DNA from: Bryobacteraceae bacterium
Lineage (GTDB): Bacteria; Acidobacteriota; Terriglobia; Bryobacterales; Bryobacteraceae
Length of the DNA stretch: 64,000 nt
Assembly (NCBI GenBank): GCA_026002875.1
Contig: BPGE01000001.1
Location: 1-64,000 of the forward strand
Direction: 5' to 3'
In this document: positions 1 through 37,142 of the stretch, piece by piece
Layout of the letters: each line of letters opens with the position of its first letter
How positions within the stretch are numbered: position 1 is the first letter of the stretch
Notes under the pieces: model-generated
What the model was told of the DNA's origin: nothing
The model's database searches: none
What the model saw: only the letters and a program-made list of their open reading frames with translations
Translations under genes and position numbers: made by a program

Positions 1-53
1 ACTATGCCAACAGCGCGACCTGATCCGGCTGATCAGGTGATTGCTGTCAGCCT

Positions 54-75
54 GGGGCGGCCAGAGGGCCGCCCC
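54..75 (+). terminator. Hairpin before the connector module (possible weak terminator)
   Basis: A perfect 9-bp stem (GGGGCGGCC at 54-62, GGCCGCCCC at 67-75) has a 4-base loop and is followed by AACCTTTT. It sits between the end of the upstream gene and the next ribosome binding site. Upstream frames stop at 21-23 (frame 3) or 38-40 (frame 2), so the preceding phage gene, perhaps the capsid gene, ends just inside the window. The T tract is poor, so it may be only partly terminating, or may protect mRNA ends. Confidence 0.5.
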
Positions 76-94
76 AACCTTTTGGGAGGAATGC

Positions 95-2118: not shown

Positions 2119-2130
2119 CAAGGAGGAACG

Positions 2131-2547: not shown

Positions 2548-2550
2548 ACC

Positions 2551-3227: not shown

Positions 3228-6108
3228 GCTGATCGTCAAGATCACCTCCGATACGGCGCAGTTCTCGCGCGGCGTGCGCGAGGTCTCCGTCGAAATGCAG
3301 CGGCTCAGCTCGGTGAGCGAGAACGCCGTGCGCGGCATCCGTACGGCCTTCGAACGCATTGGCGCGATTGGCACACGCCTCACAATCGGGGTGAGCGCTC
3401 CGCTGGCTGCCGTGGGCTTGGCGGCAGTAAAAGCGGATGCCCACCTCGAGGCCTTGCGCATGGGCCTGATCGCCGTCAGCGGCAGCGCCGCGGCGGCGGA
3501 CAAACAGCTCGCCAAGCTGGCGGATGTGGCAAAACTGCCCGGGCTCGGTTTCCGCGAAGCCATCCAGGGCTCGGTGAACCTGCAAGCTGCAGGTTTCTCC
3601 GCCCAGTTGGCGGAGCGGTCTCTCAAGGCTTTCGGCAACGCTCTTGCGACCGTGGGCAAAGGCAAAGCCGACCTGGACGGGGTCATTCTGGCCCTGACCC
3701 AGATCCAGTCCAAAGGGAAGATCTCCGCACAGGAAATCAACCAGCTTGCCGAACGCCTGCCGCAGATCCGCGCTGCCATGAAGGCCGCGTTCGGGACGGC
3801 CGACGCGGAAGCGCTCCAGAAGATGGGGATCTCGGCCCAGGAGTTCGTGGAACGTGTCGTGGCCGAGTTCGAGAAGCTGCCGCCGGTGACCGGCGGAGTC
3901 AGAAACTCCTTCGAGAACATCCGCGATGAGGCCGAACGCGCCATGGCGGAATTCGGGGCGGCGCTGCGGCCTGGCACCGAGATTGTGCTGCAGTTCGCCG
4001 AGACCGCCGTCTCGAAGCTGGCTGACATGGCAAAGAGGTTCAGCGAGCTGCCGCCGGCCATCCAGGCCACAGCTGTGGCTCTCGGGAGCCTCGCTGTGGC
4101 GGCCGGACCGGCGCTCGCAGCGATCGGCCAGATCGGTTTAGGGATCACCGGAATTGCAACAGCCGTCCCGGTCATCAAGGCCATGACTGCCGCAATGGGA
4201 GCAGGCATTCTGTCGCTTGGGCAGTTTGCTGGATCCCTAGTCTCGCAGGTGGTTCCGGCTGCCGGATCAGCCACTGTCGCACTGAAAGCGCTCGGCGGGG
4301 CGGCTCTCCTCACGGCTACAGCTCTGGCTGCCATGCAGGCAGCCACGGGCGTCATCCAGCTGGTCTCTGCATCCAAACAGCTGCGCGACGCACAGCAACA
4401 GGCCCGTGAGGCTACCGAGCAGCAGAACCGCAGTATTGAGATCCTGCGCATCAAGCTGCACCAGGCCGGTGTCTCGACCGCAGAACTGGACCAGGCCTAC
4501 CGCCGCGCGGAAATTTCGGTCGCTGAGTACTCTCGCGCCCTGATGCGATTGGCATCAGCGCATGGAGAGACTCATCAGGCCACGGAACAAGCAAAGCGCC
4601 AGACCATGGATCTGGCGGAGGCCTTCCGAATCCTGGGAGTCGACAGTACCGAGAATCTGACGAAGCGGTACCAGCAATCACGCGAGGCGCTGCGCGCCGT
4701 CGAGCAGGCCTACCGGGAGGGCAAGGCATCCGCCATGGATCTGGCGCGCGCCCAGGAAGCGGTCCGCCAGGCCTTCGAGGCCGTCCACCAGCCGATCAAG
4801 GCGGTCCGTGAAGAAATGGGCAAAATCCAGGGGCCCGAGAATGTCGGCACGGTTCTGCGCGACATGGTCTCCGAAATCGCAGGCGGCGCCCAGGCGAAGG
4901 AGGCCGAACAGAGGCTTCGGTCGATCGCAGAGATCCTCTCGCTGCGCGGGTTCGAGCCGGACAAGTTTCCCTGGTATGTGGCCAAGGCCGGCGAGGCCGC
5001 GGAACAATCCGGCCTGGCCGCGCAGATCGCCGGTAGGTACTACCAGCGGATGTGGGAGGAAATCGGCAACCAGCAGGCTGCTGCGCGCGCCGAACAACAG
5101 CTGAAGCAGTTGGCCTGGGCACTGGGGATCAACGTTGAGCAGTACAAGAAGCTGCAGGAGGCGAAGAAGCGGCTCGGGATTGCCGGTGAGAAAGACCTCA
5201 ATCAGATGGCCGCCGATGTAGCCACGCTGAAGTCCAGCAACGCACCACAGTACCAGAAAAACATCGCGGAATTGAATCTATTGCTGGAGCGTCGCCGGCA
5301 GGGCCTTGATCTGACAAAGCAAGAGCAAGATCGCCTGCGAGAGCTGCAGAACTGGCACCGCAATTTAACCCGCGATCAGGTGAACTTCTGGGAGCAGGCC
5401 AAGCAGCGGCTCGGCGCGATCTTCCAGGATACGGCAAAGGACATCACGGACCTGATCTTCAAGGGCGGAAAGTTCAAGGACGTCATGGTAGACAGCCTCG
5501 AGCAGATCGGAAAGGCGCTGACGAGGCTCGCCATCGAAAAGACGTTTGCCTCAATCGGCCGCGAGCTCGCCGGTATTGTGGCCAAGATCCCTGGACTCGC
5601 CAAGATCGGATCGATCTTCGGTTTTGGCGGCAGCGCCGCGGCTACTGCGGGCACGGCAGCGTCCACGGCGGCAGCCGCCGGGCAGGTGGCCAGTCAGACT
5701 GCGGGTACCGTCGGGAAAGTGATCGGGTCCTCGTTCACCGCTCTGGCCGGCGTGGTGACGGGGGCCATCAGCGCGGTCACCGGAGTGATCGGTGTGTTCC
5801 AGGCGGCCAGGCAGGAAAGCTCCCTCAACGCAATCGAATGGAACACGCGCAAAAGCTCGCTGCACCTGGAGCACATAATCCACCGCATCAATGCAGGCCT
5901 GCCCGGCTTCGGGGACGTGCAGGCTCGCATCGTCGAGGTGCGGGATGTTCTCATCGGTTGGGACCAGTACATCACAGGCGGCCTGAAACTGGCCGGCGGC
6001 GGTGGCAACGTCACCATCAACATGGATGGCGCCAACTTCATCGGGTTCCGCGACCTGGATGCCTTCCTGGACGAACTGGTCAGACGGCTGAAGCAGAGGG
6101 GATTGTAA
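3211..6108 (+). CDS. Phage tape measure protein
   Basis: The 965-aa protein is the longest of the tail block before the distal genes. The first 250 residues match the tape-measure N-terminal domain: LIVKITSDTAQFSRGV, then LGFREAIQGSVNLQAAGFSAQLAERSL, then KISAQEINQLAERLPQI. Residues of roughly 285-400 are very hydrophobic and alanine/glycine rich, long helical segments follow, and a glycine-rich stretch comes near 800. It sets tail length and enters the host envelope on infection. It starts inside the end of the frameshifted chaperone reading frame. Confidence 0.9.
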   Translation: MARLSELIVKITSDTAQFSRGVREVSVEMQRLSSVSENAVRGIRTAFERIGAIGTRLTIGVSAPLAAVGLAAVKADAHLEALRMGLIAVSGSAAAADKQLAKLADVAKLPGLGFREAIQGSVNLQAAGFSAQLAERSLKAFGNALATVGKGKADLDGVILALTQIQSKGKISAQEINQLAERLPQIRAAMKAAFGTADAEALQKMGISAQEFVERVVAEFEKLPPVTGGVRNSFENIRDEAERAMAEFGAALRPGTEIVLQFAETAVSKLADMAKRFSELPPAIQATAVALGSLAVAAGPALAAIGQIGLGITGIATAVPVIKAMTAAMGAGILSLGQFAGSLVSQVVPAAGSATVALKALGGAALLTATALAAMQAATGVIQLVSASKQLRDAQQQAREATEQQNRSIEILRIKLHQAGVSTAELDQAYRRAEISVAEYSRALMRLASAHGETHQATEQAKRQTMDLAEAFRILGVDSTENLTKRYQQSREALRAVEQAYREGKASAMDLARAQEAVRQAFEAVHQPIKAVREEMGKIQGPENVGTVLRDMVSEIAGGAQAKEAEQRLRSIAEILSLRGFEPDKFPWYVAKAGEAAEQSGLAAQIAGRYYQRMWEEIGNQQAAARAEQQLKQLAWALGINVEQYKKLQEAKKRLGIAGEKDLNQMAADVATLKSSNAPQYQKNIAELNLLLERRRQGLDLTKQEQDRLRELQNWHRNLTRDQVNFWEQAKQRLGAIFQDTAKDITDLIFKGGKFKDVMVDSLEQIGKALTRLAIEKTFASIGRELAGIVAKIPGLAKIGSIFGFGGSAAATAGTAASTAAAAGQVASQTAGTVGKVIGSSFTALAGVVTGAISAVTGVIGVFQAARQESSLNAIEWNTRKSSLHLEHIIHRINAGLPGFGDVQARIVEVRDVLIGWDQYITGGLKLAGGGGNVTINMDGANFIGFRDLDAFLDELVRRLKQRGL

Positions 6109-6149
6109 CGTGACGGCCTCGTGCAGCGTCCATCGGGCCGGAGAATGCC

Positions 6150-6632
6150 ATGAGACTATGCTGGATTGCTCTTTTATGCCTGACAGCATGCGCCGAAGAG
6201 GTGATGCTCCTGCCAGTTTCCTGCGCTCACGTGCAGTGGCCATCCAATGAGGTCATGCGGGCCCTTGGTTTTGAGACGCAACCCAGCGGAGGCGGCGCAG
6301 CCTGGATCTACGCCCATGCCTACCGCACCCGCGACTGGAACCAGGTCTGGCGGCAGGTGAAGAGGCCCGCTGAGACCAATGCCGGCCTGCTCGGCTACAT
6401 CGCGGGTCTGCGGCCGCGCTTTGCCGAGTTGACTCTTTATGACATCAACGTCGACTGGCGCACCGGTGAACAGCACTGCGAAGTGCGGCTGGCGGTGGAC
6501 TACAACGGATACAGGAGGGGATTCTTCACCGAAGGACCGGAGAGGTTTCGAAGCACGGGCGAGCTCGAGCGGAAGATCCTGGAACTGATCCGGCTCCAGG
6601 TCTGGGCGAAAGGACTGTTGGCAGAAAAGTAG
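6150..6632 (+). CDS. Small predicted lipoprotein within the tail operon
   Basis: The 160-aa protein starts with a short hydrophobic leader and a lipobox (LCLTACAEE, Cys14), so it is probably a lipoprotein. The mature part is soluble, with WIYAHAYRTRDWNQVWRQV and a late C-x-VRLAVDYNGYRRGFF segment; I recognise no family. A lipoprotein gene between tape measure and distal tail gene is unusual. Lysis (Rz1-like) or superinfection exclusion are possible roles, but it lacks the proline richness and small size of Rz1. A strong terminator follows it. Confidence 0.7.
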   Translation: MRLCWIALLCLTACAEEVMLLPVSCAHVQWPSNEVMRALGFETQPSGGGAAWIYAHAYRTRDWNQVWRQVKRPAETNAGLLGYIAGLRPRFAELTLYDINVDWRTGEQHCEVRLAVDYNGYRRGFFTEGPERFRSTGELERKILELIRLQVWAKGLLAEK

Positions 6633-6652
6633 GCTTAGATCACGAGTTGAAC

Positions 6653-6686
6653 AGCCCGCCGGGCTTCGGCCCGCCGCGGGCTTTTT
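6653..6686 (+). terminator. Rho-independent terminator after the lipoprotein gene
   Basis: The outer stem AGCCCGC (6653-6659) pairs with GCGGGCT (6676-6682). The inner stem CGGGC/GCCCG has a TTCG loop, and TTTTT (6682-6686) follows. It lies only five bases before the next ATG, so it ends or attenuates the upstream tail transcript and removes room for a ribosome binding site. Confidence 0.85.
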
Positions 6687-6690
6687 CATT

Positions 6691-9600
6691 ATGGCATTCT
6701 CACTGCTGATCGGCGGCGCTCCCTATAGCTGGAAGCAGGGCACCCTGAACATCGTCGAAACCCTAGGCGGCAGATCGACGTGCGAGTTCTCGATCGACAA
6801 CCCGGACGGTTCGATCACTGCGCCTCAGGTTGGCCAGAGTGTGCTCGTCAAGGATGGCGCCTACACGATCTTCGCCGGCAGCATCGAGACAGTGGAAGCG
6901 GTGCGCTATCCCGGGACCTATGCCGGCCTGTGGAGGGTATCGTGCGTCGACCACCACCGGATCCTGGACCGCAGAATCACCGGGCTAAAGAGCTGGCAAT
7001 CCACGCGCGCGGGCGATATCGTCACGGAAATCTGCACAACGTACCTGGGCGGCGAGGCAGTCGGCCTTGACTTCATTCAGCAGGGGCCGATTGTCGAGCG
7101 CTTCGAAATCGACCATGCCACCATCGCCGAGGCTCTTCAGAAACTCGCCGAAGTTGCCGGCATGGTTTGGTACATCGACTACGGCCGCCAGTTGCGATTT
7201 TTCACGCCCAATTCGTATGCCTGCCCGTTCGAACTGGAGCCTGACAGCACGAATTTCGAAGATCTCGTGCTGCGGTCAACGCGCGAGCAGTACGCAAACC
7301 GGATCATTGCCAAGATCGGCCAGTACGTCCGCGATCCGCAGACGGCGCGATTCGACGCACAAGGCCGAACCGGAGACGGCGAGGAGCCGCTCGACTGGAT
7401 GAAGCCGGACGGCTCCCGGAAGCGCTGGGCGGTGACTTTCCCAGTGCATGCTGCGCCAACGGTCCGCGTGAACGGGGTGTCGCGCACAGTGGGACCCTAT
7501 GGCGACGACGCCGCGGAATTCTACTGGCAGACAGGAAGCAGGGAAATCGGTCAATCCGACAGCTCTGCGGCTCTTGGCCCGGGCGACGTGTTGGAGATCA
7601 CATACATCGGCCTCTCTTCCGAAGTGCTTACGGTGGAAAACGCCGGCGAGATCAGCCGGCGCGCTTCAATTGAACAACACACTGGCATCTACGAAAAGCT
7701 GATCGAAACATCCCAGGAGATGACCCGTGCCGATGCGCGCCAATATGCCGAGGCCGCTCTTGACAAGCTGGACAGCCTGAGCGGGGTCGCTGTCATCGAC
7801 ACAAACACGATCATCGAACCCCTGGCGTCGACGGCCCGTGTGGGGCAGTTCATCCACGTCGATGTGGATGGCTACCGCCTGGAATGGAAGCAGGTGACCG
7901 CGGTCGAATATGGGGCCCCGTCGGTCATCACTGTCCCGGGCCACGGACTTATGGATGGCGCGCGCATCCGGCTCCATCAGGTAACTGGCCTGAACGGATC
8001 CTGGAGCGTTCAGGTAGTCGATCCAGACAGGCTGCGGCTTGTCGGTTCGAACGCCTCCGGCTCATACTCTGGTGGCGGGTATGCGTACCCGCTGACGTAC
8101 CTGATCCGCCAGATTCGGACTGCTGACGTGGCCGGTCAGCTGTCTGTCCAGCTGGAATGCGTGATGGGGCCGGCCACTGATGATGCGGTCGTTTTTTTCC
8201 GAGACCTCGCTGCCGCGCAGGGCATCCCGCCCTCTGCGCCGAGGCCATCGGAAGGCGGATCCGGCGGCGTCCCAACAGGCCCCTTGGACCCTCTCGAGAT
8301 TACGTCTGCCGCTGTCGAGTACAGGCAGAACGAAGGCGGCTGGAGCTATCGGCTGGCCGTGACTCTTTCAGGTGCAGCGATGAGTCAGGAGCACTACGGC
8401 GGGGCTGACGTTCATGTGCGTTTTGCGGCAGAGGCCCTACCGAGCGATTGGGCCACGGTCCGCAGGATCGGAGAGCATCGCCCTGGGGATCCGGCCACCA
8501 TTCAAAGCCCCTGGTGGCCCATCACGCCCGGAACGTCCACGCAGTTCTGGCTGCGGGCAGTAGTACGCGACCGCGCTGGCGGCAACCGCGCCTGGGGCTC
8601 GATCGCCGGGCCATTCGCATTGCATCTTCCCTTGGGAGACGCTGTGCCCGGTGCCGGGCACAACTGGAACTTCACGGCGCAACTGTCTGGCTACTGGGAT
8701 GACGGGAATGGGGTTCGGCTTGGCAAGGTGGATTTATCGTGGTCGCCGCTGCCGCTGCCTGGCGTATTGTACGGCGTGTACGAACACCGCTCGTCCAGCG
8801 CAACTCCGCCCTCATACTCGGCCTACACGCCGACCACGGCCAACACGTCCGATGACTCGGTCACACTGTGGGTGAGGCCGCCGAATTCGCCTGGCGAATT
8901 CCTGCACTTGGCCCTTGTGGCGCAGCTGCCAGCTGACGGAGTGTGGCCGCTACCCGACGATTACAGTCCTGGCCAACTGCCAGTAGCGTCTGTGTGGTTG
9001 CCGGTGGCCGGGCTCAGCGAGCAGGTGTCCAACTGGTCGGTCACCGTGGAGACCGATCAATCCCAGGACATCCCGCGCGGGCGCTTTGTCTTCTCGTTCA
9101 CGCCGCCAGCAGATCCCGACTATCACCACGTCAACGTCTACCGGCGGCCCGCGGACTCGCTTGGGAATCCACTGGCTGACTGGCTGCCGGATAAGGTGGC
9201 GTCGATGATTACCGGCGGCCCGGGCGGCTGGTGGCCGCTACCGAGCCAGCCGGAGCACTGGCTGTTCAAGGCGGTGGCCTGCAACTCGCTAGGCCAGGAA
9301 AATCCGGTCAGCCCTCCGACGGTGTTCATGACAGTGCCGACGTCGGCCGGTGTCACGATGAGCAAGGCCAAGCCGTCGGGCGTGACGGGGCCAATGGCGG
9401 TAGACGGACAGGGCCGGATCACGACAGCAGCTGATCGGGATGTGCCCCTGATCGCTTCGTCCCAGCCCGGCTCCGCGTACCTTGGTTCGCGGATCGTGCA
9501 GTGGATGGGCCAGATCTGGGTGTGGACCGGCAGCCAGTACCAGCTGGATACGAACGCCAACCGGATCAAGTCGGAGCTGCAGCAGAACGGCCTGACAGCG

Positions 9601-10584
9601 GCCGAGTTCGCCGCAACCTTCGCGCCGGTGCGGGTGCTGTCGTCGGTTCCTTCCACGTACCAAGGCGACTTCATCGTTAACACCAGCGATCGACGGTTGT
9701 ACCGATGGAACGGCTCTGCCTACGTCCGGCCGATGCCCGGCAGTGACATCAAGCTGGAACTGCAGGTCGACAAGCTGACGGCAGCCGAGATCTCGGCCGG
9801 AGCGATCAACACCACCCATCTGGCCGGCAACCAGATCAACATCGGCCCGTTTTCCGGCCAACCGCCACGTTTCGTAGTCACCGACAGTTACGGCAACCAA
9901 ATCGGTGCGATCGGTGAGTGGAGCGGGTTCACTGGCCTGTGGACGGTCCATGGACGCTTCGGCGGCTCCTTCTCCAACCCCATCATCTCGCTTTCCAATT
10001 TTGGGGCCCAGATCAACAATGCAGCCATCTACATCGCAACCCCTCAAGGGCAACTGGAGATGAGCCCAAGCAATGCTTTATTGTTGACGAGCAGCGGGAA
10101 TAAAGCCCAACTGTTCTATAGTCATCTGGAGGTTTCCGTCACAGGTCTTGCCTCTGCATCTTATGGAAATATGAAGGCGCTCTTTACTAACACTTCCGGA
10201 GCGCGGGCCGAGATCGGAACTGAATTTTACTCGTCTGAAGCGCGTGCAGCCATTGGCGGTTCACAGTTTTCTCCAGCGATTGAATTGTATGCTCTGGGAT
10301 CGTCTGGATCACTCAGGGTGGGAGGTGTGACGGTTATCAACTCGTCGCGGGATGGTGCATTTAACTCGTTGAGCGTCGGCGGCTCCGTTGTCATTGACTC
10401 CAACAGATATGCGTCCGTCCAACAGCTATCCGTGCAGGGGCAGATCAGGATTGACACGTTCGGGCGGCTGAGATGGCCTGAGGTGTTCAACGAAAACATC
10501 TTTCTGGGTGGGATTACGTCGACGAAGTGGGTGGCGGCCTATGACGGCGCCGGATATTTCGTGGGCAAGATCCCGCTGATTTGA
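6691..10584 (+). CDS. Large distal tail protein (hub/central fibre type)
   Basis: The 1297-aa protein has a baseplate-hub-like N-terminal part: residues 1-120 are beta-rich, then IAEALQKLAEVAGMVWYIDYG and a strand-rich region follow to about 480. The middle (540-870) resembles fibronectin-type strands with many W and Y residues. The C-terminal 350 residues carry collagen-free fibre-like stretches (LSVGGSVVID, LSVQGQIRID). Position after the tape measure fits a gpJ-like host-contact protein. No Shine-Dalgarno sequence is visible because a terminator hairpin occupies the leader. Confidence 0.65.
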   Translation: MAFSLLIGGAPYSWKQGTLNIVETLGGRSTCEFSIDNPDGSITAPQVGQSVLVKDGAYTIFAGSIETVEAVRYPGTYAGLWRVSCVDHHRILDRRITGLKSWQSTRAGDIVTEICTTYLGGEAVGLDFIQQGPIVERFEIDHATIAEALQKLAEVAGMVWYIDYGRQLRFFTPNSYACPFELEPDSTNFEDLVLRSTREQYANRIIAKIGQYVRDPQTARFDAQGRTGDGEEPLDWMKPDGSRKRWAVTFPVHAAPTVRVNGVSRTVGPYGDDAAEFYWQTGSREIGQSDSSAALGPGDVLEITYIGLSSEVLTVENAGEISRRASIEQHTGIYEKLIETSQEMTRADARQYAEAALDKLDSLSGVAVIDTNTIIEPLASTARVGQFIHVDVDGYRLEWKQVTAVEYGAPSVITVPGHGLMDGARIRLHQVTGLNGSWSVQVVDPDRLRLVGSNASGSYSGGGYAYPLTYLIRQIRTADVAGQLSVQLECVMGPATDDAVVFFRDLAAAQGIPPSAPRPSEGGSGGVPTGPLDPLEITSAAVEYRQNEGGWSYRLAVTLSGAAMSQEHYGGADVHVRFAAEALPSDWATVRRIGEHRPGDPATIQSPWWPITPGTSTQFWLRAVVRDRAGGNRAWGSIAGPFALHLPLGDAVPGAGHNWNFTAQLSGYWDDGNGVRLGKVDLSWSPLPLPGVLYGVYEHRSSSATPPSYSAYTPTTANTSDDSVTLWVRPPNSPGEFLHLALVAQLPADGVWPLPDDYSPGQLPVASVWLPVAGLSEQVSNWSVTVETDQSQDIPRGRFVFSFTPPADPDYHHVNVYRRPADSLGNPLADWLPDKVASMITGGPGGWWPLPSQPEHWLFKAVACNSLGQENPVSPPTVFMTVPTSAGVTMSKAKPSGVTGPMAVDGQGRITTAADRDVPLIASSQPGSAYLGSRIVQWMGQIWVWTGSQYQLDTNANRIKSELQQNGLTAAEFAATFAPVRVLSSVPSTYQGDFIVNTSDRRLYRWNGSAYVRPMPGSDIKLELQVDKLTAAEISAGAINTTHLAGNQINIGPFSGQPPRFVVTDSYGNQIGAIGEWSGFTGLWTVHGRFGGSFSNPIISLSNFGAQINNAAIYIATPQGQLEMSPSNALLLTSSGNKAQLFYSHLEVSVTGLASASYGNMKALFTNTSGARAEIGTEFYSSEARAAIGGSQFSPAIELYALGSSGSLRVGGVTVINSSRDGAFNSLSVGGSVVIDSNRYASVQQLSVQGQIRIDTFGRLRWPEVFNENIFLGGITSTKWVAAYDGAGYFVGKIPLI

Positions 10585-10597
10585 TGAGGAGGTAAGC

Positions 10598-10888
10598 GTG
10601 GCGGTCATTGAAATCGAGATTGACGACGCGGTGGTTGAGGAGCTGCAGCAGTCGATTGCGAACCAGGCTGCTGGCCTAGCCATGCAGTTCCGCGGAGAAG
10701 TGCCGGCTGGTGTGCCGCTCACGGTTGAGGCATGGCTGCAAAACGTGATGGAGCAAAGCATCGCACAGGTGCTGTCCAGCGTATCGCGCCGGGCTGCGGT
10801 CGAGAACGCTCGAACGGCGGTGCAGGATGCGACTGCGGCGTTGGTCAAGGCGGTAGCAGGCGTGCGGAGCGTGGTGGTTCAGAAGTGA
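10598..10888 (+). CDS. Small helical phage protein, 96 aa
   Basis: GTG start at 10598 has AGGAGG (10587-10592) upstream. The protein is acidic at the N-terminus (VIEIEIDDAVVEELQQSI), then helical and alanine-rich, ending VVVQK. There is no signal peptide or membrane segment. It lies between two distal tail genes. I recognise no family; a fibre chaperone or small structural helper would fit the location, but this is a guess. Confidence 0.65.
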   Translation: MAVIEIEIDDAVVEELQQSIANQAAGLAMQFRGEVPAGVPLTVEAWLQNVMEQSIAQVLSSVSRRAAVENARTAVQDATAALVKAVAGVRSVVVQK

Positions 10889-10897
10889 GGTGAGCGT

Positions 10898-12727
10898 ATG
10901 AGATATCTGGGCCTGCTCGCCGTATTCCTTTGCGCTCACGCGCTCGGGCAGGTGCAGATCGTCGACACGCTGCGCGTAGGCGCGGGCAATGGGTTGTTTG
11001 AGGGCCGAATCATTGTCACCGGACCGAGCATGGTCTGCGGAGGTCACACCTACGCGCCATGGCCGCTTGAAGTGCAAGTGACAAACGGCCAGGTAAATCT
11101 TACGCTCGTGCCAAGCTCTGCCTGCGAGCCGCAGGGCGTGTACACAGTGCGGTTTTTGCCGGCCCGCGGCTCGGAGTGGACGGAGCGGTGGATTGTGCCC
11201 AATTCTTCCGGCCCGTTAACCCTCGCGCAAGTGCCGCGTGCTACGTTGTCCACGACGTCGCTGTTCATCAACCCCGCGCAGATCGCGCGCTCCGGAGCTC
11301 AGGTGGGCGACGTGCTCACATGGCTGTCTTCTGGCCGCTGGGGCCCTGCTCCGCCGGGAACAGGCAGCGTCTCCCTTGCTGGAGACGTGACAGGTCCAGC
11401 GAGTTCCACGATCGTGACGGCTGTGCGTGGCGTGCCGTTTGCTCCGTCAGCCCCAATCGAAGGCCAGGTCTTTGCGTGGGATAGCGCCCAGGGATCCATG
11501 GTGCCGCGCACGATCAACGGGGCATACGCAGATGGGGAAGTGCCGGCAGGGGTCATCGATGGCTCCAACCGCCAATTCTCACTGAGCAAAAGTCCACAGC
11601 CAGCGGCGAGCCTGATGCTGTACCGGAACGGGATTCTGCAGCGCGCAGGAGTCGACTTCACGCTCAGCGGCCAGCAGATCACGTTCTGCGAGATGTGCAC
11701 TCCCGTGCCAGGCGACGTGCTCCTGGCCTACTACCGCTGGGCTCCGTCCTTACCGTTCGGGTCCCAAGTTCTGAGCGTTGCGGGGAAAGCCGGGGAAGTC
11801 ACACTGGACGTGGGTGACATCGCCAACCTCGAGGCCATCCTAGACGGCAAGGCACCGCTGGTGCACGACCATGACGGCCGATATCCCCGTCTCGACGGAA
11901 CCTACGTCAACCCCTCATGGATTTCCTCCCTCGCATGGCCCAAGATCACTGGGATCTCGGGCACACCAGATGGAACGAAATTCCTGCGGGATGACGGGAG
12001 CTGGCAGACCGTCAGTGCCTCCGCAACCTGGGGCGCCATCACGGGCACGCTGAGCAGTCAGGCGGACCTCCAGGCCGCCCTCGATGGGAAGGCAGCGGCC
12101 TCGCACAATCATCCGCTATCCGATCTGAGTCAATCCGGGGCCCTCTCCGGCCAGGTCATTAAGTGGGATGGCAGCTCGTGGGTTGCGGCACCGGATGAAA
12201 CCGGGGGAGCTCCGTCATGGGGATCCATTACCGGCACGCTGAGCAATCAGGCGGATCTGCAGACCGCCCTCGACGGGAAAGCGGCGCTGTCTCATAGCCA
12301 TGATGCCGCGCAGATCGCCACCGGAATTCTCGCTACGGCCCGTCTTGGGTCTGGAACGGCCGGCTCTGGGACGTTCCTGCGGGGCGACCAGCAGTGGGCC
12401 GCGGTGGATTGGGCGGAAGTGGTAGGCAAGCCATCCTCATTTCCGCCGGTGGCACATGGTCACAGCGCCGCTGACATCACGAGCGGCACCATCGACCCTG
12501 CGCCCCTCCCTAAACTGAAGCACGTGGAGGATGTGACAAGCCAGACTTCCGTCAATGTAGCTGCCGCGACTCACCAGCTTGGGGCCGGCCCCATTCAGGT
12601 GACGTGTTACACCCAGAGCGGCAGCAGCTGGGAATGGGTGATCCCAGACCAGGTTTTGGTCAGTGCGACAGGCGATGTCCAGATCCAGTTCCTGGTCTCA
12701 TTCACCGGCAAATGCGTGCTCCAATAG
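10898..12727 (+). CDS. Phage tail fibre-like protein with N-terminal signal peptide
   Basis: The 609-aa protein starts with a clear Sec-type leader (MRYLGLLAVFLCAHALGQ). Residues 20-120 form a beta-sandwich-like part, and the C-terminal half has fibre repeats with the pattern W-x-x-ITGTLS-x-QADLQ-x-ALDGKAA followed by H-x-H, seen twice near residues 378-410 and 443-475, with a degenerate copy near 308. Such repeats are typical of siphophage side fibres. A signal peptide is unexpected for a particle protein assembled in the cytoplasm. It may be recruited from a host surface protein, or exported. Confidence 0.72.
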   Translation: MRYLGLLAVFLCAHALGQVQIVDTLRVGAGNGLFEGRIIVTGPSMVCGGHTYAPWPLEVQVTNGQVNLTLVPSSACEPQGVYTVRFLPARGSEWTERWIVPNSSGPLTLAQVPRATLSTTSLFINPAQIARSGAQVGDVLTWLSSGRWGPAPPGTGSVSLAGDVTGPASSTIVTAVRGVPFAPSAPIEGQVFAWDSAQGSMVPRTINGAYADGEVPAGVIDGSNRQFSLSKSPQPAASLMLYRNGILQRAGVDFTLSGQQITFCEMCTPVPGDVLLAYYRWAPSLPFGSQVLSVAGKAGEVTLDVGDIANLEAILDGKAPLVHDHDGRYPRLDGTYVNPSWISSLAWPKITGISGTPDGTKFLRDDGSWQTVSASATWGAITGTLSSQADLQAALDGKAAASHNHPLSDLSQSGALSGQVIKWDGSSWVAAPDETGGAPSWGSITGTLSNQADLQTALDGKAALSHSHDAAQIATGILATARLGSGTAGSGTFLRGDQQWAAVDWAEVVGKPSSFPPVAHGHSAADITSGTIDPAPLPKLKHVEDVTSQTSVNVAAATHQLGAGPIQVTCYTQSGSSWEWVIPDQVLVSATGDVQIQFLVSFTGKCVLQ

Positions 12728-29871: not shown

Positions 29872-32688
29872 ATGCGGATCTTTTCCGGTGTTCTGCTGCT
29901 TTGCGCGGTTTCCGCATCCGCGCAGCCCGACGACAACTACAGGCGCGTGGCGAGGCTGCTGTGGGTGGTTTCCGACGTTGAGCGCACCGCGGACGCCTGG
30001 CGCAAGATTGGGGTGCCCGTGGACGAAGCCGCAGCGGCGGAATTCCGCGCCGCAGGCGGCGGCGGGCACCGCGGGCTGGCCGCCACGGGCCACTTCGCCA
30101 ACCTGCGGGTCGACTGGCTGCAGCCGGCCGACGCCGCCGGGCCGCTGGCCGCGTTTCTCCGCAGCCGCGGCGCGGGCGTGTATGCGCTGGTCTATGAAAT
30201 GCCCGGCGAGGCGGCTCTGAAGCGGGAGACCGGCCGGTATGAATCGCTGGGCGTGCGCGTTCTCGAGCAGGGGGAATATCAGATTGGCGAAGAGAAGACC
30301 GCCTACGCACTGCTGGACACCGCAGCGCAGGGCAAATTCGTTCTGGCTCTGATGGCGCCGCCTGCGCGCCCGACGGCGGCGCCCGCAACGATGCGGGTCT
30401 CGCAACTGGCATTCGTGACGCGAGATCCCGAGCCTGTGTCGGCGTTCTGGGCGAAGCTCGGATTTCCGCAGTTCACGTTCACGAGGCCGGACATCAGCGA
30501 GCGCATGTACCGGCGCCGCCCGGCCGAGTTCGCAATGCGGCTTGGCTGGCAGCGGCATGCGCAGATGCCGTTCGAGTGGATTCAGCCGCTGGCCGGGCCG
30601 AACGTTTACGAGGATCACATGGCCAGGCACGGCGAGGGTTTCCATCACCTCGCGTTCGATGTCGAGGACATGGACGCGGCCATCCGCCGCTGGGAATCGC
30701 TCGGCTACCCGGTGACGATGTCCGGGGCGTGGGGCGAGCGCGGCAGAGCGGGCAGCGGCCGTTTCGCCTACGTGGACGCGCACCCGATCGGCGGGACGGA
30801 CATCGAGCTGCTGTGGAACTACCGCGCGCCGGCTCCGCCTCCCGCCGCAGGTCCGTATGTGCTGCGGTTTGGGGCGGGCGAGCCGCTGCCCGAACACCGG
30901 CTTCCGGTGGCGCGGCTCGGCTGGCCGGCCGACTGGCGGAGCTGGCAGGCGATTCAGTTCGAGTTCACGGCCTCGTCGCTCGAGGCCTTTTCTTTCGGGT
31001 TTTCCGACGGACGGCAGGTGAAAAGCGCCATCATCGAACCCCTGCCGGGCCTGCGGATCCGCGCGGTGATTCCGTTCGACACGTTCTTCCAGACGCGCAC
31101 GATGACGCCGCTGCTGCCGCTCGGCTACAAGGTCTGGCCGGAGAGGCTGTTCACGTTCGAGCGGGTGGAGGAGATCGTAGTGCGGATGAAATCCCCTGCC
31201 CAGGACTCCACGCTGACGATCTCGAACCTGGCGCTCACGCCCGAGGCGGGGAAAGACGACATTCTGGACCGCAAGCCCGTGATCGATGCGTTCGGCCAGT
31301 GGATTCCGGAGGACTGGCCGGGGAAGGCGCACTCGCTCGAGGAGCTGAAAAAACTCTGGGCCGAGGACAGGCTGCCCCCGGCGAGATATCCGGACTACTG
31401 CCCGATGGGCGGATACCGTCACCGGACGGCGAATCCGGCGGACGCCGCGGGGAAGCCGGGCTTCTTCCGCGTTGCCCGGATTGACGGAAGGTGGTTTCTG
31501 CTGGATCCGCACGGGCATCCGTTCTTTTCGGCGGGGATGGACCTGGTGGGCTGGAAACAGGGGTCGTTCGCCACGCGGGTGACGGGCAGGGAGTTCCTCT
31601 TCGAGCAGCTGCCGCCACCGGGACCGGCCTGGCTGACGCCGGGCAGGGACGTCTCTTTTCACGCGGCCAACATCATGCGCCGGCACGGAGACAACTGGCA
31701 GGAAGAGTGGAAAAAGGCGATTCTGGAACGGCTGAAAAACTGGGGTTTCAACACCATCGGCAACTGGTCCGACCATGACATTGCAACGACCGCCGGGATG
31801 CCCTATGTGATTCCACTGAGCGGATGGACCACGAAAAAGGTGTTTCCGTTTCCGTGGGATTTCCCGGATGTTTTCAGCGAGGAATTCGAGCGGAACGCGG
31901 ACGAAGCGGCGCGCCGGCAGTGCGCTCCTCTGGCCAGCGATCCGAACCTGATCGGCTGGTTCATCGGCAACGAACCGCACTGGGCGCGCGAGTTCGGCTC
32001 GCTGAAACCGTGGGCGGAGATGCTGCTGGAAGATCCCGAGCCGTCGGCCACGAAAGCGGAGCTCGAGCGGCGCCTGAGAGAAAATCCGGCGCAGGCGGAG
32101 CAGATCAAGAGGGACTGGGTGTTCGTGTGCGGCCGGAAATACTTCGAGACGATCGTGGCTGCAATCCGCCGCCAGGATCCGAATCACCTGATTCTGGGCA
32201 TCCGGTACGCCGGCACGCCGCTGGATGAATGGGTAAAAATGTCGACCCTTTTCGACGTGTTTTCGATCAATATTTACGACGCGGATTTCCGTCCCGACCC
32301 GGCGAAGCTGGACCGCTACGCGCAGCTTTCCGGCAAGCCCATTCTGATCGGCGAATTCACGGCCTGCGCTCCGGGGCGGGGCTTGCAGGGCCTGTTTTAC
32401 TGGACGCACAAGGTGAAGGACCAGACGCAGCGAGGGATCGCCTACCGCTACTACGTCGAGAACGCGGCTGCGCACCCGGCGGTCATCGGCGCGCACTGGT
32501 TCCAGCTGGTCGACGATCTGCCGACGGGCCGGCCGTCGGATCTCGAGCGGCTGAACTACGGTTTTCTGAACGTGCTGGACCTGCCGTACAAGCCGCTGGT
32601 GGAATACGCGCGGGAGACGCACCGGCGGCTGTACAGCGTGAAATTCGGCAAGGAGCCGCCGTATTCGCGGAAGCCGCTGATTGACTGA
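29872..32688 (+). CDS. Exported VOC-VOC-GH50-like fusion protein
   Basis: The 938-aa protein has a Sec leader (MRIFSGVLLLCAVSASA). Two VOC/glyoxalase-like domains follow (about 20-165 and 174-322; the second keeps GFHHLAFDV with His258/259 and Glu312). A beta-rich segment resembling a carbohydrate-binding part spans 323-465. The C-terminal 470 residues resemble GH50 beta-agarases: DAFGQWIPEDWPGKAHSLEEL, then DGRWFLLDPHGHPFFSAG. The likely acid/base is Glu701 in IGWFIGNEPHW and the nucleophile Glu828 in PILIGEFTA. I know of no standard family with this order. Substrate could be an algal or plant galactan. Confidence 0.8.
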   Translation: MRIFSGVLLLCAVSASAQPDDNYRRVARLLWVVSDVERTADAWRKIGVPVDEAAAAEFRAAGGGGHRGLAATGHFANLRVDWLQPADAAGPLAAFLRSRGAGVYALVYEMPGEAALKRETGRYESLGVRVLEQGEYQIGEEKTAYALLDTAAQGKFVLALMAPPARPTAAPATMRVSQLAFVTRDPEPVSAFWAKLGFPQFTFTRPDISERMYRRRPAEFAMRLGWQRHAQMPFEWIQPLAGPNVYEDHMARHGEGFHHLAFDVEDMDAAIRRWESLGYPVTMSGAWGERGRAGSGRFAYVDAHPIGGTDIELLWNYRAPAPPPAAGPYVLRFGAGEPLPEHRLPVARLGWPADWRSWQAIQFEFTASSLEAFSFGFSDGRQVKSAIIEPLPGLRIRAVIPFDTFFQTRTMTPLLPLGYKVWPERLFTFERVEEIVVRMKSPAQDSTLTISNLALTPEAGKDDILDRKPVIDAFGQWIPEDWPGKAHSLEELKKLWAEDRLPPARYPDYCPMGGYRHRTANPADAAGKPGFFRVARIDGRWFLLDPHGHPFFSAGMDLVGWKQGSFATRVTGREFLFEQLPPPGPAWLTPGRDVSFHAANIMRRHGDNWQEEWKKAILERLKNWGFNTIGNWSDHDIATTAGMPYVIPLSGWTTKKVFPFPWDFPDVFSEEFERNADEAARRQCAPLASDPNLIGWFIGNEPHWAREFGSLKPWAEMLLEDPEPSATKAELERRLRENPAQAEQIKRDWVFVCGRKYFETIVAAIRRQDPNHLILGIRYAGTPLDEWVKMSTLFDVFSINIYDADFRPDPAKLDRYAQLSGKPILIGEFTACAPGRGLQGLFYWTHKVKDQTQRGIAYRYYVENAAAHPAVIGAHWFQLVDDLPTGRPSDLERLNYGFLNVLDLPYKPLVEYARETHRRLYSVKFGKEPPYSRKPLID

Positions 32689-32851
32689 GGGGCTGAGGGG
32701 GAGATGGCACGGGCGGGATGCAGCCCTCGCGCGAGCGCGAGGGGAAACCCGCTAAGGAGGGCGCGGGGAAACCCGTTGGGGAGGGCGCGGGCAACACGGT
32801 TGGGATGCAGCCCTCGGCCAAGGCCCAGGGGAAATCCGTTGTCGAGGGCGA

Positions 32852-33622
32852 GGCGGACTGGCCGCGCCTGCGGCGCGATGGGGGGTGTCGGAAGGTTGGG
32901 GGGGGTTGTGTTTGAACCGCTTGGTCGCAGCCCTTCGGGCTGCTCCCGCGCGGCTCTGTTTGGCGGGGGTTGTGTGAGAGTGGTATCCGGGGAAGGAATG
33001 GGCACGGTTGGGATGCAGCGCTCGCGCGAGCGCGAGGGGAAACCCGTTGGGGAGGGCGAGGGCAACACGGTTGGGATGCAGCCCTCGGCCAAGGCCGAGG
33101 GGAAATCCGTTGTCGAGGGCGAGGCGGACTGGCCGCGCCTGCGGCGCGATGGGGGTGTCGGAAGGTTGGGGAGGTTGTGTTTGAACCGCTTGGTCGCAGC
33201 CCTTCGGGCTGCTCCCGCGCGGCTCTGTTTGGCGGGGCGGGTTTTGGTTGGTTTCGTAGAATTGCGGTTTGGGGTTTGGACGGGTGTTGAGGGGCAATGG
33301 TTTGCGGGGCGGGAGCAGGCACGCTTGGGATGCAGCCCTCGCGCGAGCGCGAGGGGAAACCCGTTGGGGAGGGCGAGGGCAACACGGTTGGGATGCAGCC
33401 CTCGGCCAAGGCCGAGGGGAAATCCGTTGTCGAGGGCGAGGCGGACTGGCCGCGCCTGCGGCGCGATGGGGAGGGTGTCGGAAGGTTGGGGAGGTTGTGT
33501 TTGAACCGCTTGGTCGCAGCCCTTCGGGCTGCTCCCGCGCGGCTCTGTTTGGCGGGGCGGGAGCAGGCACGGTTGGGATGCAGCCCTCGCGCGAGCGCGA
33601 GGGGAAACCCGGAGGGGCTTGC
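32852..33622 (+). repeat. 771-bp tandem repeat, copy 1
   Basis: Copy 1 of a 771-bp unit made of the hairpin modules A, B and C and a unique insert near 33235-33300 (GGTTTTGGTTGGTTTCG...). I see no base difference from copy 2. Confidence 0.85.
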
Positions 33623-34393
33623 GGCGGACTGGCCGCGCCTGCGGCGCGATGGGGGGTGTCGGAAGGTTGGGGGGGGTTGTGTTTGAACCGCTTGGTCGCA
33701 GCCCTTCGGGCTGCTCCCGCGCGGCTCTGTTTGGCGGGGGTTGTGTGAGAGTGGTATCCGGGGAAGGAATGGGCACGGTTGGGATGCAGCGCTCGCGCGA
33801 GCGCGAGGGGAAACCCGTTGGGGAGGGCGAGGGCAACACGGTTGGGATGCAGCCCTCGGCCAAGGCCGAGGGGAAATCCGTTGTCGAGGGCGAGGCGGAC
33901 TGGCCGCGCCTGCGGCGCGATGGGGGTGTCGGAAGGTTGGGGAGGTTGTGTTTGAACCGCTTGGTCGCAGCCCTTCGGGCTGCTCCCGCGCGGCTCTGTT
34001 TGGCGGGGCGGGTTTTGGTTGGTTTCGTAGAATTGCGGTTTGGGGTTTGGACGGGTGTTGAGGGGCAATGGTTTGCGGGGCGGGAGCAGGCACGCTTGGG
34101 ATGCAGCCCTCGCGCGAGCGCGAGGGGAAACCCGTTGGGGAGGGCGAGGGCAACACGGTTGGGATGCAGCCCTCGGCCAAGGCCGAGGGGAAATCCGTTG
34201 TCGAGGGCGAGGCGGACTGGCCGCGCCTGCGGCGCGATGGGGAGGGTGTCGGAAGGTTGGGGAGGTTGTGTTTGAACCGCTTGGTCGCAGCCCTTCGGGC
34301 TGCTCCCGCGCGGCTCTGTTTGGCGGGGCGGGAGCAGGCACGGTTGGGATGCAGCCCTCGCGCGAGCGCGAGGGGAAACCCGGAGGGGCTTGC
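33623..34393 (+). repeat. 771-bp tandem repeat, copy 2
   Basis: This copy appears identical to copy 1, with an offset of exactly 771 bases. Such identity means a very recent duplication or ongoing gene conversion. Confidence 0.85.
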
Positions 34394-34780
34394 GGCGGAC
34401 TGGCCGCGCCTGCGGCGCGATGGGGGGTGTCGGAAGGTTGGGGGGGGTTGTGTTTGAACCGCTTGGTCGCAGCCCTTCGGGCTGCTCCCGCGCGGCTCTG
34501 TTTGGCGGGGGTTGTGTGAGAGTGGTATCCGGGGAAGGAATGGGCACGGTTGGGATGCAGCCCTCGCGCGAGCGCGAGGGGAAACCCGTTGGGGAGGGCG
34601 AGGGCAACACGGTTGGGATGCAGCCCTCGGCCAAGGCCGAGGGGAAATCCGTTGTCGAGGGCGAGGCGGACTGGCCGCGCCTGCGGCGCGATGGGGGTGT
34701 CGGAAGGTTGGGGAGGTTGTGTTTGAACCGCTTGGTCGCAGCCCTTCGGGCTGCTCCCGCGCGGCTCTGTTTGGCGGGGC
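34394..34780 (+). repeat. 771-bp tandem repeat, partial copy 3
   Basis: It follows copy 2 directly and matches for about 387 bases, with one difference seen (C at 34562 against G at 33791). It then changes to a different order of modules. Confidence 0.8.
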
Positions 34781-35086
34781 GGGAGCAGGCACGGTTGGGA
34801 TGCAGCCCTCGGCCAAGGCCGAGGGGAAATCCGTTGTCGAGGGCGAGGCGGACTGGCCGCGCCTGCGGCGCGATGGGGGGTGTCGGAAGATTGGGGAGGT
34901 TGTGTTTGAACCGCTTGGTCGCAGCCCTTCGGGCTGCTCCCGCGCGGCTCTGTTTGGGCGGGGTTGTGTGAGAGTGGTATCCGGGGAAGGAATGGGCACG
35001 GTTGGGATGCAGCCCTCGCGCAAGCGCGAGGGGAAACCCGGAGGGGAGGGCGAGGGCAACACGGTTGGGATGCAGCCCTCGGCCAA

Positions 35087-35245
35087 GGGGTCTGTGAAAA
35101 AATCCCCCGGCCCGATTTTGGCCAAAAGTGAGGCGTGATTGCCCTCGCCAGAAGTCCCAGAACGCGCCGCAAGCGGCCGCCTCAGGGTTCGGCTACCCCC
35201 ACACGGGAACCGCTGTGTCCGGTAGGCGATTTTTTCACAAACCCC
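35087..35245. mobile_element. 159-bp MITE-like element inserted into a repeat hairpin
   Basis: The ends are an 18-bp inverted repeat with one mismatch: GGGGTCTGTGAAAAAATC at 35087-35104 and the complement at 35228-35245. It splits a B module: CCCTCGGCCAA before and AAGGCCGAGGGG after. Removing the element and one AA restores the palindrome exactly (a 2-bp AA duplication; CCAAGG is the alternative 6-bp reading). The inside has no reading frame of note, so a transposase elsewhere would be needed. Confidence 0.82.
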
Positions 35246-35823
35246 AAGGCCGAGGGGAAATCCGTTGTCGAGGGCGAGGCGGACTGGCCGCGCCTGCGGC
35301 GCGATGGGGGGTGTCGGAAGGTTGGGGGGGGTTGTGTTTGAACCGCTTGGTCGCAGCCCTTCGGGCTGCTCCCGCGCGGCTCTGTTTGGCGGGGGTTGTG
35401 TGAGAGTGGTATCCGGGGAAGGAATGGGCACGGTTGGGATGCAGCCCTCGCGCGAGCGCGAGGGGAAACCCGTTGGGGAGGGCGAGGGCAACACGGTTGG
35501 GATGCAGCCCTCGGCCAAGGCCGAGGGGAAATCCGTTGTCGAGGGTGAGGCGGACTGGCCGCGCCTGCGGCGCGAGGGGGGGTGTCGGAAGGTTGGGGGG
35601 GGTGTGTTTGAACCGCTTGGTCGCAGCCCTTCGGGCTGCTCCCGCGCGGCTCTGTTTGGGCGGGGCGGGAGCAGGAACGCTTGGGATGCAGCCCTCGCGC
35701 AAGCGCGAGGGGAAACCCGTTGGGGAGGGCGAGGGCAACACGGTTGGGATGCAGCCCTCGCGCGAGCGCGAGGGGAAATCCGCTGGGGAGGGCTGCGGCC
35801 AAACGGCAGCGGGCACGCCGGGG

Positions 35824-36627
35824 TCAGAATTCGCTGACGGAGGTGATGCCGCTTTCGTGGAGAGCGGCGGCCATTTTTTCGAGGGCGGACTTGTGGATCT
35901 GGGAGACGCGGCTTTCGTTGATGCCGAGCATGCCGCCGATTTCTTTCATCGTGAGCTCGTTGGAGTAGTACAGGATCACGACTTTCCGATAGCGCTCGGG
36001 AAGAACGCTCATGGCTTTCTGGAGGCGCTCGCGCATCTGTTCGCGGGCGCAGATGAAGTCAGGCTGGCTTTCGGGATCGCCCGGGTAGTCGGGAGGGGGC
36101 AGCTCGTCCTGATCCTGGCTGCGGCTGTCGGCGGAGACGAGCCCGATGTTGCGGAGATCGAGAGCCATCTGGCGCCACCGGGAGACGGCGACGCCCATGC
36201 GCTCGGCCAATTCGTCTTCGGTGGGCTGGCGGTGCAGCAGGGCGCAGAGGTCGCGCGTGATCTGCTCGACCTGGCGGTGTCTGCGGCGCATGTCGCGGGA
36301 AGCCCAATCCATCTGGCGGAGACTGTCGAGAATGGCGCCCTTGATGCGGTGCTTCGCGTAACTGGAAAAGGCCACCTTCTTGTTGGGGTTGTATTTCGAG
36401 GCAGCGTCGAAAAGGCCGAGAATTCCGGCGTGGACAAGGTCGTCCAATTCGACGTGAATCGGGAGCCCCTCATGAACGCGCACGGCGATCGCCTTCACGA
36501 GAGGGAGATGTTCGAGGACAACCCTGTCGCGCTGCTCGCGCTTCGCCGCAAGCCTTTTCTCCGCACTGACTGCCGCCGGCTGCTTCGGCTTCCTCGCCGC
36601 CACGGTTGCTGTCGCTCTTGCCGCCAT
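35824..36627 (-). CDS. FliA/WhiG-type RNA polymerase sigma factor
   Basis: The 267-aa protein has a basic N-terminus and sigma region 2 (DDLVHAGILGLFDAASKYNP, then FSSYAKHRIKGAILDSLRQM, then DWASRDMRRR). Region 3 follows, and region 4 carries LPERYRKVVILYYSNELTMK with an HTH (IGGMLGINESRVSQIHKSAL). This pattern is that of sigma-28/WhiG proteins. ATG 36627 is chosen because GGAAGG lies eight bases upstream; the frame is open to 36987, but that part is low-complexity. No anti-sigma gene (FlgM) is adjacent. It may direct motility, pilus or developmental genes. Confidence 0.88.
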   Translation of the reverse strand: MAARATATVAARKPKQPAAVSAEKRLAAKREQRDRVVLEHLPLVKAIAVRVHEGLPIHVELDDLVHAGILGLFDAASKYNPNKKVAFSSYAKHRIKGAILDSLRQMDWASRDMRRRHRQVEQITRDLCALLHRQPTEDELAERMGVAVSRWRQMALDLRNIGLVSADSRSQDQDELPPPDYPGDPESQPDFICAREQMRERLQKAMSVLPERYRKVVILYYSNELTMKEIGGMLGINESRVSQIHKSALEKMAAALHESGITSVSEF

Positions 36628-37142
36628 CGCATCATCCTTCCTGCCAAGCTTCGGTCCCGGACCCCCCTCTCTGGTGGAGGAGTGGGTCTTTCTACGGGGG
36701 ACCTTCGGGCTGTCCGGAGCAGCGCTCCCGACGCCCGGCGCAAGGGGGGAGGCAATCGAGCGGCCATTTGCGCCGTTGCGGGGCCCGAGGTGGCGGCGAT
36801 CCTCGCAGCCAACCGCAACTGCAAGATTCAAAAGGCTGTTTTGATATCCATCCAGACCGCCTCCCGTCCACGGAAGCGGGGGCTGGAGCAGGCTGGAACC
36901 CAGCTTTTCCCGTTTCGATCCGACTTTGGCCCGAGCCCTCATGGCATGACTCTCCAAGCTGGAACACCGAGTTTCATATCGGTACAAATTCGGAGTTCGA
37001 GCCGCTGTAAGGGAATTCCCCTCAGGGCCTCCTGCGCCGATGCTAGCGCGAAGTTGAGGAGCTTCCTCTAGATGACTCGCCTGATTTCGCAGGGTGGAAA
37101 CACTGATCCCGGGCGGCTGTCAGCACTGATATCGAAGGTGAA
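36628..37142 (-). other. 515-bp leader/intergenic region upstream of the sigma factor
   Basis: No gene is supported here. The sigma frame is open for the first 360 bases but is rich in Pro, Gly and Arg and lacks a ribosome binding site. On the minus strand, TAGCAT near 37045 could be a -10 box, which would give a leader of roughly 400 bases. I see no known riboswitch pattern. Confidence 0.4.

Follow-up and report, generated by a model that had tools for sequence, protein, structure and literature searches.

The closest described relatives of the element reported here are the repeats linked to class 3 TnpA-Y1 transposases. According to the passages on this class in Quentin et al. 2018 (PMC6006769), the transposases carry a Y----Q motif, their hosts are Planctomycetes, Acidobacteria and Proteobacteria, and their flanking structures have a CnGA foot; Solibacter usitatus has ∼600 copies and three genes. 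In the parts of the literature examined, the repeats linked to class 3 repetitive extragenic palindromic (REP)-associated tyrosine transposases (RAYTs) receive one short paragraph that gives no arrangement or mechanism. Here we describe a hairpin array in a Bryobacteraceae bacterium (GenBank assembly GCA_026002875.1, contig BPGE01000001.1), a single-contig 4.86-Mb genome whose first 64 kb constitute the window, that is, the whole stretch of DNA analysed. The array fills the gap between two convergent genes (positions 32689-35823), and in all probability it is a mosaic of two REP-like non-autonomous families, A/B and D-C, that were spread by class 3 RAYTs and then expanded head-to-tail. Each family is the presumed single-stranded DNA (ssDNA) substrate of its own short HuH/Y1 transposase, RAYT1 for A/B and RAYT2 for D-C.

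Transposase genes embedded in hairpin families

Four Y1_Tnp genes were found in the genome, two by Pfam search and two more by homology to RAYT1. RAYT1 (149 amino acids, G000:C1:2167718-2168164) has a full A/B hairpin ∼65 bp past its stop codon and a degenerate A/B hairpin ∼110 bp ahead of its start. RAYT2, at about 2182133-2182663, has a complete module C on both sides, and RAYT3 is flanked on both sides by a third hairpin family, of which the genome holds four exact copies, all at the RAYT3 locus. A sequence-only reading of the window had listed a REP-like element cluster among the possible identities of the array and had proposed looking for a RAYT gene; three are present, each inside its own repeat family, which supports that identity. 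The fourth gene (L001, at 3.427 Mb) scores 78.6 bits with the NCBIfam REP-associated transposase model, against a cut-off of 80, and branches far outside in the tree; similar stretches recur on either side of it in the open reading frame (ORF) translations.

Residues H69, H71, Y129 and Q134, which make up the HxH, Tyr and Y----Q motifs, are invariant in nine homologues including RAYT1-3, and the same positions are invariant in 22 proteins, two of which also belong to the set of nine. Among PDB entries, the predicted fold of a RAYT2 orthologue (mean pLDDT, the predicted local distance difference test score, 79.4) is most similar to 4er8, in which E. coli RAYT is in complex with a REP hairpin (E = 2.9e-5), followed by the TnpA proteins of ISDra2 and IS608, with modest TM-scores of 0.40-0.49 by query length (top 24). 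Homologous loci were examined as the best 80 of 112 named, 73 of them with both flanks. In 48 of the 73, the two sides of the gene have in common an identical run of 15 nt or longer, compared with 0 of 53 distal controls, and CnGAGCC[GA]CG lies within 600 bp of 49 of the 80, at 1.67 per kb versus 0.066 per kb further out (25x). The hosts of 74 of the 80 loci are labelled Planctomycetes, Acidobacteria or Proteobacteria, the last in the older sense that counts Deltaproteobacteria and Desulfococcaceae.

Repeat and transposase were also compared across genomes. Module C has 53 copies in this genome and 50 in the congener G004, with none in the other 99 of 101 genomes searched, and RAYT2 is present in G004 (76% identity) and absent from G001-G003, the remainder of the four congeners searched. 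The A/B pattern, sought in 61 genomes, was found only here and in four copies in G004, and no close homologue of RAYT1 occurs in the other 60 genomes (best 38%). Hence repeat and transposase co-occur for module C and RAYT2, with A/B in G004 as the exception. The A locus of G004 (G004:C28; L004, L010) is 98.7-99.3% identical in DNA to locus L054 of this genome, while two other G004 proteins are only 76-80% identical to their counterparts; judged by this disparity, the locus is probably either foreign or the result of a recent transfer. It has four units compared with 23 in L054, a gap for which contamination, recent transfer and collapse of repeats in assembly are candidate causes.

Set beside class 3 as outlined in the passages cited (PMC6006769), the present system shares the Y----Q motif, HuH, an acidobacterial host, several flanking structures, a high copy number and three genes. 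The CnGA foot is present in module C beside RAYT2 (CGGAGCCGC) and in the third family beside RAYT3 (CAGAGCCGC), and RAYT2 with module C agrees with class 3 in every feature tested. RAYT1 with A/B does so except for a clean CnGA foot, from which the A/B modules depart: in reverse reading, 71 distinct cores give CGGATTTC (12), CGGGTTTC (18), CGGGCTTC (9) and otherwise other forms, so that the foot position is CGGA in part of the cores and CGGG in more. The RAYT1 gene and the A/B repeat both look diverged, which fits, but does not prove, their co-divergence. Head-to-tail arrays, two-family mosaics and covarying stems, all found here, do not figure in those passages on class 3.

Di Nocera et al. 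2013 (PMC3733652) describe TIRYT, a sharply delimited group of Y1 transposases with flanking repeats in Acidobacteria. As outlined in that description, its members are, like RAYT1-3, short acidobacterial Y1 transposases, and their repeats can form dimers and clusters; they are, however, terminal inverted repeats, whereas the hairpin units on the two sides of RAYT1-3 point the same way. Likened by description, the TIRYT group is possibly of the same lineage as RAYT1-3. With the REPINs and BIMEs of the group 2 and 3 RAYTs in E. coli, Pseudomonas and Stenotrophomonas, as presented in the sections drawn on from PMC8266576, the hairpins share an intergenic position and a RAYT per repeat family, but they form head-to-tail arrays instead of alternating inverted pairs. 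The GTAG/GTGG foot tetranucleotide of REP/REPIN is absent from the conserved flanks of A/B and C, and inverted paired copies of that kind are lacking, since none of the 45 A/B clusters found in the stretches read mixes orientations; foot and orientation thus place these repeats outside the GTAG-type REP/REPIN. The genome adds a rich new instance of a kind of bacterial repeat that has been described only thinly, and no new kind of system.

The hairpins are themselves targets of insertion. Insertion sequences (ISs) that target REPs have been described by Tobes and Pareja 2006 (PMC1525189); here an IS1182-like element and a miniature inverted-repeat transposable element (MITE) with nearly the same ends sit in A/B hairpins, and the ISs named in the relevant part of that paper bear other names. 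All seven left ends found lie at the same point, the tip of an A/B hairpin (the window copy in Table 1, L047:3980, L048:3858, L051:8409/8714/9017 and L071:5532), although those in L051, three in number, may go back to a single insertion. The assignment to IS1182 rests on a neighbouring incomplete ORF, which scores 241.9 bits against a cut-off of 270.

Hairpin structure and array layout

The 39-bp A/B core consists of TTG, the base arm GGAT, GCAG, an 8-bp apical stem closed by the loop CAAG or CGAG, GAA, the 3′ base arm (ATCC or forms such as ACCC) and G, and thus comprises a GGAT/ATCC base stem, an internal loop and an apical stem. Stems were surveyed in 36 stretches of the genome (the window and 35 others), in which the head pattern matches 305 times, a few of them by chance. 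The 295 matches with the right flank contain 32 distinct arm pairs, of which the commonest fully paired ones are CCCTCGCG/CGCGAGGG (175) and CCCTCGGC/GCCGAGGG (60), followed by CCGCCGCC/GGCGGCGG (13) and CCATCGCG/CGCGATGG (5). The apical stem is 96.3% paired among 64 distinct copies, and 52 cells carry a change on both sides compared with 14.5±2.8 after shuffling (0 of 500 shuffles as high), a signal that is lost when the partner is slid. The covariation that the sequence-only reading had noticed between A and B stems is therefore borne out. Counted by pair, those with any two-sided change are no more numerous than in shuffles (4 versus 3.9), and further pair types exceed the shuffled count only modestly (15 versus 13.0; 9 of 500). 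The base stem is weaker, with 74.6% of cells pairing and one of its four pairs usually unformed.

Folded as ssDNA, one B copy gives a two-stem fold with z scores of −2.8 and −2.5 on its two strands, and one A copy, which has a stem mismatch, folds no better than shuffles (z −0.9 and −1.1). The corresponding values are −1.9 (plus strand) and −3.1 (minus strand) for a module C copy, −3.0 for the C copy beside RAYT2 and −1.0 for the copy beside RAYT3 with its surroundings. The stems lie between conserved flanks, GGGATGCAG and GAAANCCG for A/B and CGCTTGGTCGC and GCTCCCGCGCGG for module C. Seventeen stem types of module C were examined at the listed C places of this genome and G004; 14 pair through 5-7 bp from the base with loops of 3-4 nt, and the remaining three through only 2-4 bp. 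The flanks of module C in G004 are the same as here and many of the stems differ in a paired way. These patterns support the view, also taken from the sequence alone, that structure is under selection, yet recognition of an ssDNA hairpin by a transposase suffices to explain it without a host function. In L061, L066 and L073, units of one array whose spacers are identical or nearly so bear different paired stems, as if whole hairpins had been exchanged between fixed flanks.

In the window array, all hairpin units share one orientation. Annotation by regular expressions identified 12 A, 8 intact B, 11 D, 11 C and 5 linker (E) copies, and a ninth B, split by an insertion, brings the A/B total to 21 (Table 1). 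The units follow the order A-(B)-D-C, repeated. The segments 33003-33773 and 33774-34544 match each other at all 771 positions, and the longest identical run at an offset of 771 is 939 bp; what had been read as a fixed grammar is therefore partly the product of one recent duplication. The order itself is real. Among 33 other stretches of the genome that were scanned, D-C at 54-59 bp was found again in nine (L042, L046, L047, L048, L051, L053, L060, L061 and L070), and A (or the stem variant P) lies 53-54 bp before D-C in five (L042, L048, L060, L061 and L070), so that D-C acts like a dyad, and A-D-C is a composite that recurs. The window array and L048 (∼1.705 Mb) agree over a long run of modules, down to a B hairpin that carries a MITE of the same kind, which suggests that a large array segment was copied between distant sites. 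The flanking genes end at 32688 (+ strand) and 35824 (- strand), so that the array fills the space between them, in agreement with the initial claim that it occupies the exact gap.

Table 1. Features of the hairpin array and its neighbours (window positions; for further copies only the position noted is given).
Feature	Position	Strand	Remarks
Hairpin array, very probably a mosaic of REP-like elements (families A/B and D-C)	32715..35805	+	Single orientation
Module B, example	33071..33109	+	39-bp core TTG-GGAT-GCAG-CCCTCGGC-CAAG-GCCGAGGG-GAA-ATCC-G
Module B, other intact copies	32800, 33388, 33842, 34159, 34613, 34795, 35497		Window array
Module A, example	33325..33363	+	B-type core with stem CCCTCGCG/CGCGAGGG
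Module A, other copies	32713, 33008, 33573, 33779, 34096, 34344, 34550, 35002, 35434, 35681, 35744		Window array
Module C, example	33180..33234	-	Read on the - strand: GAGCCGC-GCGGGAGC-AGCCCGAAGGGCT-GCGACCAA-GCGGTTC
Module C, other copies	32921, 33510, 33692, 33961, 34281, 34463, 34732, 34915, 35347, 35617		Window array
Module D, example	33127..33149	+	GACTGGCCGCGCCTGCGGCGCGA; 56-59 bp before its partner C in the window
Module D, other copies	32856, 33444, 33627, 33898, 34215, 34398, 34669, 34851, 35282, 35553		Window array
Two exact 771-bp tandem copies (recent segmental duplication)	33003..34544	+	0/771 mismatches
MITE-like insertion in the tip of a B hairpin	35089..35243	+	16-bp ends GGTCTGTGAAAAAATC / GATTTTTTCACAAACC; CCAAGG flanking each side
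Upstream gene, 938 amino acids, glyoxalase-like domain (Pfam)	29872..32688	+	Convergent with the sigma-factor gene
Downstream gene, sigma-70-type factor (Sigma70 r2, r3, r4 by Pfam)	35824..36987	-	Exact start uncertain

Genome-wide distribution and strand skew

The hairpins are dispersed well beyond the one locus from which they had first been noticed: the genome contains 313 exact A/B heads, divided 173 to 140 between the two strands, and the reversed control gives none. Positions are known for ∼198 heads among the matches listed, and the stretches read were chosen around these and around the Y1 genes; with genes called by a home-made gene finder, 298 of 303 A/B heads in them sit between predicted genes. 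Heads are spaced mostly 62-65 bp apart, also 39-40 and 101-103 bp. Spacer similarity is 0.88 within arrays and 0.74 between arrays (sampled pairs; 21 arrays), and since spacers are more alike within arrays than between them, arrays seem to grow locally.

Several other identities were considered and rejected. Long open frames cross the array, but in general no reading frame is maintained, since spacings of 39, 40, 62, 63, 64 and 65 bp are often mixed within one array and those of 62, 64 and 65 bp break any frame. The constant repeat with a ∼24-nt spacer resembles CRISPR, but the spacers look like array-specific variants of a single purine-rich sequence. A search with 799 bp of the array gave no match in a plasmid collection, which argues against a plasmid origin, and the whole window has no Rfam match at gathering score, which argues against a known RNA family.

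The orientation of A clusters agrees with the repeat-masked local GC skew in 36 of 40 cases with 5-kb flanks (p = 1.9e-7, which is optimistic because clusters in one skew domain are not independent), in 40 of 47 with 3-kb and in 35 of 40 with 10-kb flanks. Agreement is found for 24 of 25 clusters of at least four copies and for 15 of 15 module C clusters. Two of the four exceptions belong to the RAYT1 locus, and another is an array of 10 copies where the DNA has almost no skew. In genes next to arrays, the mean skew at third codon positions changes sign with the orientation of the array and does so on either gene strand. In the stretches read (1.64-1.84, 2.02-2.22, 0.40-0.56 and 2.22-2.40 Mb of the genome, and 32-57 kb of the window), skew forms sawtooth domains of 20-60 kb with an amplitude of ∼0.2, in which sharp minus-to-plus steps are followed by slow decay. 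The window array lies near a rise from ∼0.07 to 0.2, and some steps, such as one near 1476 kb, have no A array. Averaged over clusters of at least three copies, the oriented skew is ∼0 at −18 kb, 0.14 just downstream of the array and 0.03 at +24 kb. The standard deviation of skew (4-kb windows, repeats not masked) is 0.106-0.141 in four stretches of this genome chosen around arrays and 0.054 in one 200-kb sample of G002, a congener that lacks exact copies of A and C.

The plain account of the orientation bias is that copies insert into exposed ssDNA in a strand-specific way. Inversions of a normal two-replichore genome are not favoured as the whole cause of the alternating skew, since several skew domains begin sharply and fade slowly. 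A search of one literature collection found no paper on GC skew together with REP, orientation and the leading strand. In the portion of PMC3174227 consulted, a lack of strand bias is remarked on in the host group, and the tie between orientation and strand skew allows a direct test, in that group, of how ssDNA transposition and replication are connected.

Origin and spread of the arrays

We propose that the arrays arose in four steps. By homology with the RAYT enzymes that have been studied, for which strand-specific recognition of folded ssDNA, cleavage and rejoining are documented (PMC8266576, in the sections drawn on), the transposase would recognise the hairpin in its folded form, together with the conserved flanks, on a single exposed ssDNA strand, which it would cleave and rejoin. 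New copies would insert between genes, often at their 3′ ends, a position that is observed and from which an insertion preference may be supposed. Unequal recombination or slippage would then multiply units head-to-tail into arrays with array-specific spacers, as indicated by the within-array spacer similarity and the 771-bp duplication. Finally, stems would drift in compensated pairs between fixed flanks, a pattern that is observed and that would follow if the hairpin itself is what the transposase recognises. No host function is needed to explain the arrays.

Several observations weigh against spread by class 3 RAYTs. RAYT2 and RAYT3 score below the Pfam cut-off for Y1_Tnp, and RAYT1 is a very long branch (3.72) of unsure position in the tree. 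The A/B modules lack the CnGAGCCGCG foot typical of the group, and A copies occur in G004 without RAYT1. Of the homologous loci, 25 of 73 have no shared flanking stretch and 31 of 80 have no CnGA motif nearby, while 30 of 360 cross-locus pairs share 15-mers, as expected for one common motif, which weakens the notion that each gene has its own family. Neither a transposition event nor an empty site nor any activity was observed.

A host function, with the hairpins as bidirectional transcription ends or mRNA 3′-end stabilisers and the RAYT linkage reflecting origin only, is rather unlikely. It would account for the intergenic position of nearly all heads and for the frequency of convergent gaps, which make up 20 of 46 gaps with A/B heads (19 are co-directional and 7 divergent) and 12 of 121 without (Fisher p = 3.6e-6). 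The enrichment between convergent genes that the sequence-only reading had proposed to test thus holds over all gaps, but does not reach significance when only gaps of 300 bp or more are counted (19 of 44 versus 5 of 24, p = 0.11); 26 of the 46 are not convergent, and gene 3′ ends are also the least harmful places for insertion. In co-directional settings, arrays may tend to be opposite to the genes (12 of 17 cases). The suggestion of a bidirectional terminator found no support, since terminator-like sites (a G+C stem followed by a T-run) occur in the array at chance level (4 versus 4.0 expected), none of them on A, B or D stems and two at the tail of C copies. In the four congeners, no A or C array lies within 1.5 kb of the sigma-factor orthologue, where the only pattern matches are a single 7-base and a single 11-base one, each isolated. 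The 938-amino-acid gene is not adjacent to that orthologue in the congeners, and their loci, one of which has a run of N, include no clean empty site. By eye, a different long repeat is seen downstream of the orthologue in G003 (L097), at the same gene end.

Still less probable is plain tandem-repeat expansion, in which minisatellite-like slippage or unequal crossing-over would have built the arrays with no transposase involved. Array-specific spacers, the exact 771-bp duplication and mixed unit lengths speak for it, but it leaves unexplained the dispersal to 45 separate clusters, the three Y1 genes flanked by three distinct families and the co-occurrence of RAYT2 with module C; it accounts well for how arrays grow once a copy has arrived and not for how copies spread. 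We give equally little weight to chromosome-organising sites, that is, sites bound by gyrase or nucleoid proteins or linked to replication direction, the orientation of which would be selected. The agreement of array orientation with GC skew and the accompanying flip in third-codon-position skew would fit such sites, but strand-specific insertion into ssDNA gives the same bias, the G002 sample without A or C also has skew domains, if weaker ones, and the presence of A in 2 of 61 genomes and of C in 2 of 101 is unlike a conserved host site. Least probable of all, by a small step, is that HuH nicking of the A/B and C hairpins (or fork trouble) starts directional DNA synthesis or ssDNA exposure over tens of kilobases, so that the arrays would be origin-like points that write the sawtooth skew.

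On the reading as RAYT-spread families, the genome offers three transposase/repeat pairs, hundreds of copies, paired stem variants both within the genome and between congeners, and two families that share arrays. Together these constitute a natural experiment in the joint divergence of a HuH transposase and its hairpin.

Two minor observations concern other sequences. L181 is a bin labelled Bordetella parapertussis, and the tree shows zero distance between its protein and the one from G028, which belongs to the same family as this genome; L181 is evidently a mislabelled metagenome bin. Large ORFs at positions 1-12700 of the window resemble phage tail proteins by eye (tape-measure-like and tail-fibre-like), which suggests the presence of a prophage.

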